Source of the DNA: Humulus lupulus
Taxonomy: Eukaryota > Streptophyta > Magnoliopsida > Rosales > Cannabaceae
Length of the DNA stretch: 64,000 bases
Reading direction: 5' to 3'
Assembly: GCF_963169125.1 (NCBI RefSeq)
Contig: NC_084793.1
Coordinates: forward strand, 39,551,578-39,615,577
The notes beneath the pieces are model-generated. The model was not told the origin of the DNA and made no database searches. It saw only the letters and a list, made by a program, of their open reading frames with translations. Below are positions 42,188 through 52,306 of the stretch, piece by piece; the stretch's first letter is position 1, and the number at the start of each line of letters is the position of its first letter. Both the position numbers and the translations under genes were made by a program.

Positions 42188-42290
42188 CACTACACCAAAT
42201 ACCCATTTCCATAACACATGAATATAATACTAATCAAAAAGTGTTATACTAGAGTACTATGTTGGGCCACTTTATGAAAAAAGGCGGTAA
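42188..42290 (+). repeat. Left terminal and subterminal repeat of Pack-CACTA
   Basis: The CACTACA terminus is followed by ATAACAC and GTGTTATACTAG within 70 bases, the same words that fill the right subterminal region. Confidence 0.8.
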
Positions 42291-42339
42291 TAATTCACCA
42301 TCCCGCCACTTTGCATTTTTTTTCATTTGGGAGACCTGA

Positions 42340-42660
42340 AAATTTGTGAGACCGTGAGACCCAATTCTTTTCCTTCAATCATTCTCTCTTCTCTCTCTCG
42401 GATCTCTTTCTCCCACCAGACCTCTCTCCTTCACTCTTCTGTAATAGAATTAGAATACCGAGCCTTTTTTTTTCTTCTCAATTCAATATTTCCCTTTTCA
42501 AAACATCTTCTTTCTCATTTCGTTCCCTTTTTTCTTTTTTTCATTAAAGAAAGGAAAGGAAAGGAGCTCGTTTTGAAAGAGATACTGCTTTCTTCGTTCG
42601 AGCTTGAAGACCTATTCGACTCGGTCTCTAGGGTTTCTTTATTTCTGGTTTAGTTACAGG
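42340..42660 (+). promoter_or_regulatory. Captured promoter/5' UTR-like segment
   Basis: A pyrimidine-rich run (42370-42440, CTCTCTTCTCTCTCTCGGA) and a TCTAGGGTTT motif near 42625 are typical of plant 5' untranslated leaders. An open frame through it (42327-42653) is low complexity and not considered a gene. The source gene is unknown. It could give the element a transcription start. Confidence 0.4.
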
Positions 42661-42708
42661 TACATCTTCTTCTTCTTAGGTTGCCTGAGATTCTCATGTT
42701 TCGAAAAT

Positions 42709-42950
42709 GGAGTGTTCGATTATCGGATCCAAAATAAGAATCCAAATGTCTCCAGGATCTGTATGTTTCCCCCTTTCTTTTTCCTGGCTGTACAATTTGG
42801 AACTCATTTATATGCTATCATGGTTTTCAGATCAATGGAGCAGCATGTCCTTTTGAGGAACAAGAAAATGAAATGAATGATTTAACAAGTAGACATTGGT
42901 TACCTGTTCCAGAGGCTGTTGAAGGTCTGCAATGTGAGCTTCCATTTGAT
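42709..42950 (+). pseudogene. Unassigned two-exon start of captured gene
   Basis: An ATG at 42709 opens MECSIIGSKIRIQMSPGS up to a GTATGT donor at 42763. The acceptor at 42831 continues in the same frame as INGAACPFEEQENEMNDLTS, then HWLPVPEAVEGLQC. I do not recognise the protein. A GTGAGC donor lies near 42934. Joining to the topoisomerase exon that follows would put that exon out of frame. Confidence 0.35.
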
Positions 42951-48169: not shown

Positions 48170-49739
48170 GTAATTTTCCTCAGTATTTTAGAATAGCTTC
48201 CTTCATTTTTGCTCTTATTTGTACTGCACTTAATAAATATGTTTCAAGTGTCTTATTTTTGCTCTTATTTGTATGTTAAGTTACTATCTTATTTTTGGAA
48301 GACTTATCCCGCTTTTTTTTCTCTGTCTCTTTTCCTTTTGCTCAGTCTTTATAAGGCTCCATGCAATGGTTTGAAGGAAATTTTGTGTTGAAGCTATTGT
48401 CTCCTAATAAAAGTTGCAATTCGTTCTATTGTTCTTTATGTTTTATTCTATTATAAATATTTTATTATGGGTGACTTGCTTTGTTAAATGTGTCATCTCA
48501 CAAGTTAGATTTTTTCTTGTTCTTTTGCATAATACATAGGGTTAAATGATAGGCTCTATGGAGCATATTAGGCTCTATAGTTATCTGTGCTGTTTTTTAG
48601 TTTTTCTACTGTTATTTAAATCTATTAAATAATTTGTGCCAAATTCTGCATTGGCTTGTTTTGCTTGCTGAAACTAGTTTAATATGTTTGCTATATCTTT
48701 ATATGCTTGCTATCGTAATTTTTGTGTTGCTGACTATTATTTTAATATGCTTGTTGTCTATATATGTATATAAGAAACTAGTTTTATGGCTCTTTTGCAA
48801 ATTCAAACTTTGTTTATTGTTTTATTGCGATAAGCTTTGGGGAGATAATAGATAATGTGTGAAACTTGATGTATTGCTTGTACTCTTTTGAATCTTTTCT
48901 TGTTCTATATATTTTCTCTAGTTTTCTTTGTTATTCTTTGGATTTAGCCGATACAAATGGTGAATTCTTGTGTTGTCCTTATTGACACTTTGCAAACAAT
49001 AGCTTAAAAGTTGCCTTTTCTCTTTTGGATAATTATCTATCAGCACTGGTAGATAATTTTGGGTTATGATGAAACTACACTACATATATATAATATGGCC
49101 AAATGTGTTAAGTACTTCTATTATGAATACTAAAAAGGATGCTACGTACTTTTGCTACCATTTTTAATTTTTTTTTGAAAGTCGTGATTGAGATCTTAAT
49201 TTTGGTCTGGTTTTTGGTTGGTTCTCAGTTTGTAAAAAATAATTTTGCCTCTAAATTAGGAATCATTGGCAACATATTAATACCTTCAAGTTCATGATAA
49301 TTTTTCCTTTTTCAAGTTATGTAATGGATCTTCATCTTCATCATTGATAAGTTACTATATTTTTCTTTACTGACGAATTAATATGATGATTTTTGCTAGA
49401 ATAATCAGATACCCTGAGATGTGGATATCTTGTGAAATGAGATTGATAGCATCTAGGACGCTGAGAAGCATCTGCTCAAGCTTTTATTAACTTTTTATGT
49501 ACTAAGGAAGGGCTATGTTAAATCCTGAAATTGTATTTTGTTTAGCCATTCTGAAGTTGCATATTGTTCAAGTCTTTACATAACTATGTTTTAGATGGAC
49601 GTCAATTGTGTACAAACTTATTTTTCTTGCGTTCATTAGTCTGAACTTGAAGTATTACAACTTTCTAATTGATAGCACAGCTCCAAAACCTTTATTTATT
49701 GTCCCTATATTCTTTTCTCACTGAATATGGGAGCTTCAG
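48170..49739 (+). other. Noncoding interior of Pack-CACTA
   Basis: T-rich intron-like DNA. Open frames at 48209-48391 and 48634-48855 are hydrophobic low-complexity translations and not convincing genes. Confidence 0.45.
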
Positions 49740-50274
49740 CTCTAACTTGTGAGTTTACAACTGCTCCAGCCCTTGTGATACCAAAAGCTATTTCAAATGC
49801 TGGTTTAGATGCTTCTCAGATTGATAACTATGAAATAAATGAAGCGTTTTCTGTTAGATTTTAGTACTTGTAATCCCTATACTGTTCTTGATTTATTAAG
49901 CATTTTTTTTCATTCATTTATATTTGTCCTTCTTCTCTCTAGGTTGTAGCTCTAGCCAATCAAAAGCTGCTTGGTCTTAATCCTGTGAGTTTGGAGAAAA
50001 CTAGATGATTTCTTTCAAGTTGATTTACTCTTAAGTCTGAAATGTATGCTATTTTAAATGTGATCACTCTTCCATTTTCTGCAATTTGTATAGTCATTCA
50101 TCTGTCCACAATGCATTTCAGCTTTGCTCCATTTTGTCACTATCCTTATCTACATTTTTTTACTCTTCCAATTTCCAAATATCTCAGGAAAGCCTTAACG
50201 TACATGGTGGGGCTGTATCATTGGGACACCCATTAGGATGCAGTGGAGCTCGTATCTTGGTCACATTGTTAGGG
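49740..50274 (+). pseudogene. Captured acetyl-CoA acetyltransferase (thiolase) exons
   Basis: Three exons: 49740-49852 ([20 protein letters not shown], then [14 protein letters not shown]), 49943-49984 (VVALANQKLLGLNP) and 50188-50274 ([20 protein letters not shown], then ARILVTLLG). This is the C-terminal catalytic half of cytosolic acetyl-CoA C-acetyltransferase, which condenses two acetyl-CoA at the start of the mevalonate pathway. The catalytic histidine of the NEAF-associated region and the [10 protein letters not shown] loop are intact. The final exon with the second active-site cysteine (the NGGG region) is missing. All three junctions keep GT-AG borders and phase 0. Confidence 0.95.
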
Positions 50275-51990
50275 GTAATCTATAAGCGTCCCTTCTCTTG
50301 CAATGCATTCCTAGTTTGACATTCTAATATCATTTATATAGTTCTCTGGTTTTGTTTACATGTTCTCTTAATGATCTAAAGTCATAGTTCGTGGTCATAT
50401 CTAAGCTTATGCTTTCTACATATACTCATGTGAAGTGATCTCGTGTTTGTCATTTATTCTTTTAAATTTCTGTTGAGAGTTTAGCTGTGGAATAAAAGAG
50501 ACATTGGTAACTATGCTCTCTCTGATATATTTTACTTGCACTAATTTTATTCCAATGGGTAACTAGTTCATATACTGTAAACTTTAAGATAGAAAAGTTC
50601 AAAAATTTCTTTACTCTGTCATTATTTTGTGTTTGACTAGTACTAGAGAAGGTGAGGCTTTTAACTATCCAGAAGCTGTAATAATAACTATTGTCCTTTC
50701 TCAATAAACAAACTGAAAAAGGTTGAATAAAACAAAAAAACATTTATACTCTACTGTCACAAAAATGTACAAGACTATTTCTGGATGATCAAACATAATT
50801 AACTTAGATAATCTTTAAGTAAATGGCTAACTCATTAGAAGAGCAAACATTTCTCTCTACTAGCTGGACATGATACCTATGGGAACCAAGATATAGAAAC
50901 ATTTTAAAGTTAGATACTTATAGTCTAAAGAAGAAGAAACTAAAGAAAGCATTAATATTCATGCACAGAGTCATTTGTTACAGCTATACTTGAAAGATAT
51001 CTTTGTGATATTACAGCTATACTTATACTAGAGAAAGTAGATTCATATTGTTTTATGCATAATTTTATGAAATATATGAATATTGCATCTGGTCTGGGAT
51101 TTCTTTTTCTTCTGTTGTTATATGAATATGCCTGTTGTTATAGCCAGCCATGGGTAATGTTTCATGAGCAATTTTTTCTTCAAATAATGCCTGTGTCATG
51201 TTGTTTATGGTATATCTTAGTTTCTTATTAATTATTTAATTATTTAGGTTTCTTCCTCCAGTAATGGATGTGAGATTCTAACTAGTCTAGTATTGGTTAT
51301 CTGAAAATCTCATCTTCTCAAGCTTCAGATTTTTTTTAATTCATTTTGGTATCTTAGTAGTGATCATTGCAAGCATAACAGTTGTTATAGGTCCTTTCTT
51401 TCATTCTCTCTCTCCCTCTCTGACCATTTCTAAATGTTGATGTTTGTCTGTGTTGCTCTTATAGATATATTTGTTATCTTGATACATTTCACAAGCCTTG
51501 TTTTAACTTGCATGTTTTGTTGCTTCAGTCATTGTTTTGTATGGTAGTACATCTTGCTATACCTTGCTGTTTTGTCAAGTTTTGGAGTTATTACAAATTT
51601 AATTTAAACTTTATATGCTTACAGGTGGAAACTAGCTTAAGTCTTATGTTCTTAATAATAAAAGGACTTTTTTTTTACAATGTGCAGGTATATTGAGATG
51701 ATTTCTTTGGAGCAATTCTTGACAACATTTATAGTTGAGGCCTTTAGAATGGAAGAATGTATCTCACTAATTTTTGTATACATTTCTTATTTTGTATTTA
51801 GTGATAAAGGAATCTGAATTGGGCATAAATTATGTTGTAATATGATTTCTTAAGCCTAGACTAGTAGACTAAATATTGTAATTACATTTAAGTAATTAAT
51901 AAAAATCTATTTATGTTACCTTATTTGGCTTCAACTTTCATATTTGTTTTCCTAGTTTTGTGTAAGTAAAAAAAGATTATGTTTCTCTGT
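50275..51990 (+). other. Noncoding interior of Pack-CACTA
   Basis: AT-rich and without recognisable exons. The stretch 51370-51720 is T-rich with possible intron borders but no identified protein. Confidence 0.45.
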
Positions 51991-52306
51991 GCTAATATAA
52001 CATATGTGTTATACTAAAGTGTAGTATAACACAAAAAAGTGTTATACTAAAGTGTAGTATAACACAAAAAAAGTGTTATATAATCGACTATAAATAACAT
52101 AATTCAACACTTATCTATATATTAAAATAACACAGAAATTGTGCTATCGTTGACAGTACAATAACACATCTGTATAACACTGATAAAGTGTTATGTAAAA
52201 TACCATGACCTACGATAACATAGTCGGTCTTAACACATCAGAAAGTGTTATCGTATGTTTTGATAACACATTTTCGGTGTTATTAAAATCATTTTTTCTT
52301 GTAGTG
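51990..52306 (+). repeat. Right subterminal and terminal repeat of Pack-CACTA
   Basis: About 15 copies of GTGTTAT or its complement ATAACAC in 320 bp, including two tandem copies of a block with AGTGTTATACTAAAGTGTAG (52010-52076). The end TTTTTTCTTGTAGTG is the CACTA terminus. Dense short repeats of this kind are the transposase-binding regions of En/Spm-type elements. Confidence 0.88.

Follow-up and report, generated by a model that had tools for sequence, protein, structure and literature searches.

The element at positions 42188-52306 of a 64,000-nucleotide stretch of hop (Humulus lupulus) contig NC_084793.1 (contig positions 39,551,578 to 39,615,577, forward strand; this whole stretch is referred to as the window, and all positions below are window positions) spans 10,119 bp and is, with high confidence, a non-autonomous CACTA (En/Spm-type) DNA transposon, i.e. 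a Pack-CACTA. The features of this class are present, as no recognised transposase and fragments of host coding genes are found between its two ends. Fragments of five unrelated gene families were identified inside, all on the plus strand and with their introns, and the donors number no fewer than five and possibly seven or more. A previous reading of the same DNA, made from the letters without database searches (the sequence-only reading), had proposed a Pack-CACTA with these limits, and both the class and the boundaries were correct.

Terminal and subterminal sequences

The left end starts with CACTACA at 42188 and the right end finishes with TGTAGTG at 52306, exactly as had been read before, and the perfect target-site duplication (TSD) TAT is directly legible on both sides (42185-42187 and 52307-52309). 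The left terminal inverted repeat (TIR; 42188-42219, plus strand), which begins with CACTACA, matches its partner at the right end (52275-52306, minus strand), which ends in TGTAGTG, at 22 of 32 bases. TIRs starting with CACTA and a 3-bp TSD are among the defining features of the CACTA (En/Spm) superfamily, and the element has both.

The plus strand of the window contains five copies each of CACTACA and TGTAGTG, which leaves room for an alternative in which a cluster of unrelated pseudogene pieces happens to lie between two of them. All pairings of a CACTACA with a TGTAGTG 100-30,000 bp away within the window were therefore compared. Only the pair that bounds the element, out of 11 such pairings, has equal 3-bp flanks, and its terminal identity (22/32) is the highest, the other ten having 11-19 matching bases. 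Beyond the exact 7-mer, 15 of the 25 remaining terminal bases agree, a value equalled by 303 of 200,000 random pairs drawn from the window.

The subterminal regions were characterised using the motif GTGTTAT/ATAACAC, of which the window holds 31 exact copies. Sixteen lie in the element, 12 of them within its final 307 bp, 2 within its initial 120 bp and 2 between these regions, and 15 lie outside (0.28 per kb). Fourteen of the 16 copies within the element thus sit at its ends, and enrichment relative to the rest of the window gave Poisson P values of 5e-4 on the left and 3e-22 on the right. As the motif was picked post hoc, 533 stretches of 307 bp from outside the element were used as a control; none of these contained any 7-mer with at least two G/C bases at 12 or more copies, A/T-only 7-mers reaching as many as 28 copies. 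The right array (52000-52306) combines the 12 exact motifs, in both orientations, with a 33-bp direct repeat, and the left region (42211-42254) has one motif each way, ATAACAC at 42211 and GTGTTAT at 42241. The same subterminal motif is present in both orientations at both ends, as is characteristic of the CACTA superfamily, heavy on the right and thin on the left, so that the dense subterminal repeats of the sequence-only reading were found on the right (12 in 307 bp) and not on the left (2 in 120 bp). A sparse left region speaks for a chance pairing of end-like strings. However, the single matching 3-bp flank with the top terminal identity, the enrichment of one 7-bp motif at both ends with no comparable motif in the 533 outside stretches, and a strand skew that differs between the inside and the outside of the element (described below) together make chance pairing very improbable.

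Host gene fragments between the ends

The interior was searched against Pfam with a six-frame scan of 42250-52240 (stops written as X, the outermost 62 and 66 bp lying outside the scan) and with exon-level scans of ten pieces, seven of which gave no match; matches below every cut-off were disregarded as noise. Five unrelated families scored above the Pfam curated cut-offs: topoisomerase II, DUF4042, the RED splicing factor, leucine-rich repeat (LRR) and acetyl-CoA acetyltransferase. No transposase family was found in the six-frame scan of 42250-52240, in line with the earlier statement that the element has none, and the possibility of an internal transposase remnant was rejected.

The topoisomerase II fragment (43021-43493, plus strand) comprises three pieces at 43021-43134, 43223-43333 and 43446-43493, with introns kept. 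TOPRIM_C scored 29.6 bits in the six-frame scan (cut-off 29), all seven matches of the pieces to solved structures were topoisomerase II, and the first exons, used as a protein query, had 1,228 matches at E<=0.001 out of 1,236 candidates, the best 120 matches bearing the topoisomerase domain. The acetyl-CoA acetyltransferase fragment, from the thiolase C-terminal domain (49757-50274, plus strand), likewise consists of three pieces (49757-49852, 49943-49984 and 50188-50274) that are in phase when spliced. It matched Thiolase_C at 44 bits (cut-off 27), a second stretch in a different frame giving 24.8 bits, under the cut-off; thiolases were found among the best 60 of its 92 structure matches, and the top match was an acetyl-CoA acetyltransferase aligned over 76 of 76 residues. 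Both identities had been recognised from the letters alone and are upheld by these searches.

Two exon groups that had been left unassigned were identified by Pfam matches above the cut-offs. The first is a RED/SMU2 splicing-factor fragment (45825-46049, plus strand) in two pieces, one ending at 45893 and the other starting at 45978, with the intron kept; RED_N scored 48.8 bits at exon level versus 24.1 bits in the six-frame scan (cut-off 22), all three structure matches were the spliceosomal protein Red, and the alignment of the joined pieces with human Red is free of gaps. The second is a DUF4042 exon piece (44421-44492, plus strand) covering profile positions 109-143 of 182, which scored 27.4 bits at exon level (cut-off 27) and a sub-cut-off 23.9 bits in the read-through frame. 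With RED and DUF4042 added, the count of at least five unrelated genes in the sequence-only reading holds, on a donor list that is partly different. A 23-base direct repeat was also seen in this part of the element, with copies at 44344-44366 and 45759-45781 on the same strand (22 of 23 bases identical, self-comparison E 6e-4); the copies begin 77 and 66 bases ahead of the DUF4042 and RED pieces, respectively, and are possibly templated filler copied at capture joints.

The LRR fragment (47820-48169, plus strand) has pieces at 47820-47845, 47975-48046 and 48125-48169, which are in phase when spliced, and LRR_1 scored 21.7 bits in the exon-level scan (cut-off 20.6). The best 60 of its 136 structure matches were mostly plant LRR receptor kinases, as expected of LRRs, which match many such proteins. 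An LRR receptor kinase had been proposed here; the three LRR exons stand, and LRR exons alone were recognised in this fragment, with no kinase exon. A weak ascorbate-peroxidase-like exon (44067-44117, plus strand) gave only two matches in a PDB search at E<=10, both to ascorbate peroxidase (E 1.1 and 1.2), with no PDB match at E<=1 and no Pfam match, and its earlier naming is retained as tentative; a version of the piece with one residue foreign to the window's frame gave E 0.98 and 0.99. The exon-like piece at 46474-46533 (plus strand), previously called synaptotagmin, is unconfirmed, as neither the exon-level Pfam scan nor further, repeated searches gave a match.

Two exon-like segments precede these fragments on the plus strand (42707-42933), one at 42707-42760 with an ATG and a GT donor and one at 42831-42933 with AG and GT borders; neither matched in the exon-level Pfam scan. 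A pyrimidine-rich, putative promoter- or 5'-leader-like stretch was recognised upstream by reading the sequence (42300-42700, plus strand). An open frame of 121 residues results when the ATG exon (42707-42760) is placed straight in front of the three topoisomerase II pieces, and 13% of CACTA-captured genes on wheat chromosome 3B are reported to be expressed with dN/dS below 0.4 (PMC4290129), both of which could fit a domesticated chimeric gene whose fragments are co-expressed and under selection for a product. However, inclusion of the next segment (42831-42933) stops the frame after 52 residues, the family matches are partial, and no named hop protein was found among the best 120 of the 1,228 matches of the topoisomerase chimera, many of which are nameless. 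Domestication is given very little probability, and the Pack-CACTA reading is preferred.

Introns, orientation and proposed origin

Across the 14 exon pieces, AG was found immediately 5' in 12 and GT immediately 3' in 10, split codons being allowed; the borders were hand-picked, and this count is not an independent test. The border signal is absent where the LRR and thiolase groups begin and where the topoisomerase, DUF4042 and RED groups and the unconfirmed 46474-46533 piece end, and the pieces lacking it look like capture breakpoints. Reading phase continues when the topoisomerase, LRR and acetyltransferase pieces are joined within each group, so that the retention of introns described in the sequence-only reading is borne out by both the borders and the phase. 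Because introns and phase are kept, the copies derive from genomic DNA (or unspliced RNA) rather than from spliced mRNA, and processed, reverse-transcribed gene copies were rejected on the same ground.

All five supported families are on the plus strand in the six-frame and exon-level scans, as had been stated, and the minus strand of 42250-52240 gave no Pfam match at E<=1. The sense strand of plant introns is rich in T. When AT skew was calculated in 500-bp bins, with the two bins straddling the ends excluded, the mean inside the element was -0.17, with 18 of 19 bins negative, and the mean outside was +0.01, with 43 of 107 bins negative. The T excess in 18 of the 19 inside bins backs a single orientation, except at about 50600-51050. 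Five fragments would fall on one strand (either strand) by chance in about 6% of cases, and an orientation bias is suggested, not shown, by one element. It is unlikely that hop CACTA elements gain or keep only fragments that are sense to their own leader; if they did, capture may be tied to transcription or, alternatively, sense fragments may be removed without harm by splicing from the transcript of a gene that hosts the element. A bias of this kind, if real, would be informative about the way in which CACTA elements pick up DNA.

Multiple gene fragments are common in Helitrons, and several same-strand host-gene fragments with introns are a Helitron pattern too, which could suggest rolling-circle capture in a Helitron-type element that was subsequently enclosed or flanked by CACTA ends. 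However, when Helitron 3' ends were searched for with a stringent pattern (a perfect stem of 6-10, at least half G+C, followed by CTRRT), neither strand of the element held a candidate, compared with five in the whole window, and three 5'-end-like strings inside the element are without a 3' partner. Helitrons insert between A and T and have neither a TIR nor a TSD; with both present in this element, a Helitron origin is considered highly unlikely.

Several points weigh against the classification as a Pack-CACTA. The TIRs are exact over 7 bp and loose thereafter, and the left subterminal region is poor, with just two motifs. Neither a second copy of the element's ends nor a donor locus for the fragments was found within the 64-kb window. 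The DUF4042, TOPRIM_C and LRR_1 scores barely exceed their cut-offs, the topoisomerase and LRR identities being additionally backed by structure and protein searches. The T-rich trend of the plus strand is broken in the AT-skew bins by an A-rich segment of roughly 450 bp (50600-51050), which may be a later or nested insertion or an oppositely oriented fragment. Finally, an empty site was sought in the repeats that surround the element. The right flank (52313-52703) and a repeat at 17572-17863 are diverged copies in inverted orientation (74% over a 206-base core), and their similarity sets in only a few bases from where the element ends. When both flanks were aligned to the 17572-17863 copy, the right flank scored 271 and the left flank 56, the maximum of 50 shuffles being 95, and no empty site was found; as the left flank does not extend the right-flank alignment, none is claimed.

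Under the Pack-CACTA reading, the element retains its cis-acting ends, namely the TIRs and the asymmetric subterminal array, around an interior in which genomic pieces from several host genes make up the larger part, and its mobility would depend in trans on a CACTA transposase encoded at another locus. The fragments, with their introns kept, were probably added at the DNA level in several rounds, most likely through neighbouring CACTA insertions mobilised as a single unit; a route in which adjacent insertions are mobilised together with the intervening DNA has been published (PMC13317346, PMC8903248). If the element is transcribed, transcripts would start from its own left leader or from a neighbouring promoter, and the kept splice sites predict cassette splicing of the exons, giving chimeric RNAs that are mostly non-coding, after the pattern of the soybean element Tgm-Express1. 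Small RNAs against the donors, proposed along with chimeric transcripts in the sequence-only reading, would be a further hypothetical product.

Comparison with known elements and the surrounding window

Tgm-Express1, a CACTA element in the soybean wp allele, is also a direct precedent for the arrangement of fragments, and the description of five or more same-strand donors as unusual was overstated (PMC1947982). It is reported to carry fragments of five host genes, one of them for an unknown protein, in 5.7 kb, and chimeric sequences made up 11 of the 12 distinct transcripts cloned, with exons spliced as cassettes (PMC1947982). Such cassette splicing into chimeric mRNAs implies that its fragments are read in the transcript sense. 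Tgm-Express1 resembles the hop element in containing exonic and intronic fragments with GT/AG intron borders (PMC1947982), and differs from it in length (5.7 kb versus 10.1 kb), in its donor genes and in its location, which is the intron of a flower-colour gene, whereas the hop element lies among retrotransposon remnants. Transcription is proven for Tgm-Express1 and hypothetical for the hop element.

The Pack-CACTA elements described in Arabidopsis, maize and rice are likewise non-autonomous, with CACTACAA-type ends and genic DNA inside, which sometimes comes from several loci as in the hop element; host and family differ (PMC8903248, PMC13317346). The Tpn1 family of Japanese morning glory consists mostly of non-autonomous CACTA elements whose interiors, like that of the hop element, have been replaced by host sequence; they average 7,081 bp and share the 3-bp TSD and subterminal repeats, with TIRs of 28 bp compared with the 7-bp exact and otherwise loose TIR in hop (PMC5105172). 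Imperfect TIRs, a 3-bp TSD and right-heavy subterminal repeats (4 left, 24 right) are also described for Tgmt*, a putative autonomous soybean CACTA element which, unlike the hop element with no recognised transposase, codes for one (PMC2613891). On wheat chromosome 3B, 140 CACTA capture events are reported, with likely exon shuffling for 17 captured genes (PMC4290129), and Chenopodium CACTA elements also contain captured gene fragments (PMC8978399). The hop element joins this known kind, seen in soybean, morning glory, maize and wheat, as a clear and rather rich example. It is a well-bounded case in which a cut-and-paste transposon has shuffled exons, and alone it contributes one more instance and no new principle. 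A Pack-CACTA from hop was not found described among the listed papers naming CACTA, transposon and Humulus lupulus (covered mainly as titles and abstract openings), in which hop is mentioned once or twice and never in the title.

In the surrounding window, a retrotransposon gag frame (14262-15311) is 100% identical over its full length to the Humulus lupulus protein LOC133813440, and its next 29 matches are hop proteins as well, which marks the window as hop DNA. Three of ten other window frames matched retrotransposon proteins above the Pfam cut-off (gag, Pol beta-barrel and RVT_2). Just left of the element, a 720-bp segment (39801-40520) showed a 69% match to its reverse complement in a self-comparison, and GC content is very low, at 13% in 40001-40500. 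A larger segment of about 1.25 kb (60523-61772) matches its own reverse complement at 79% and represents a large imperfect palindrome or nested inverted repeats. Dispersed repeat copies of 74-86% identity, in both orientations, are shared between 52954-55236 and 15681-19249.

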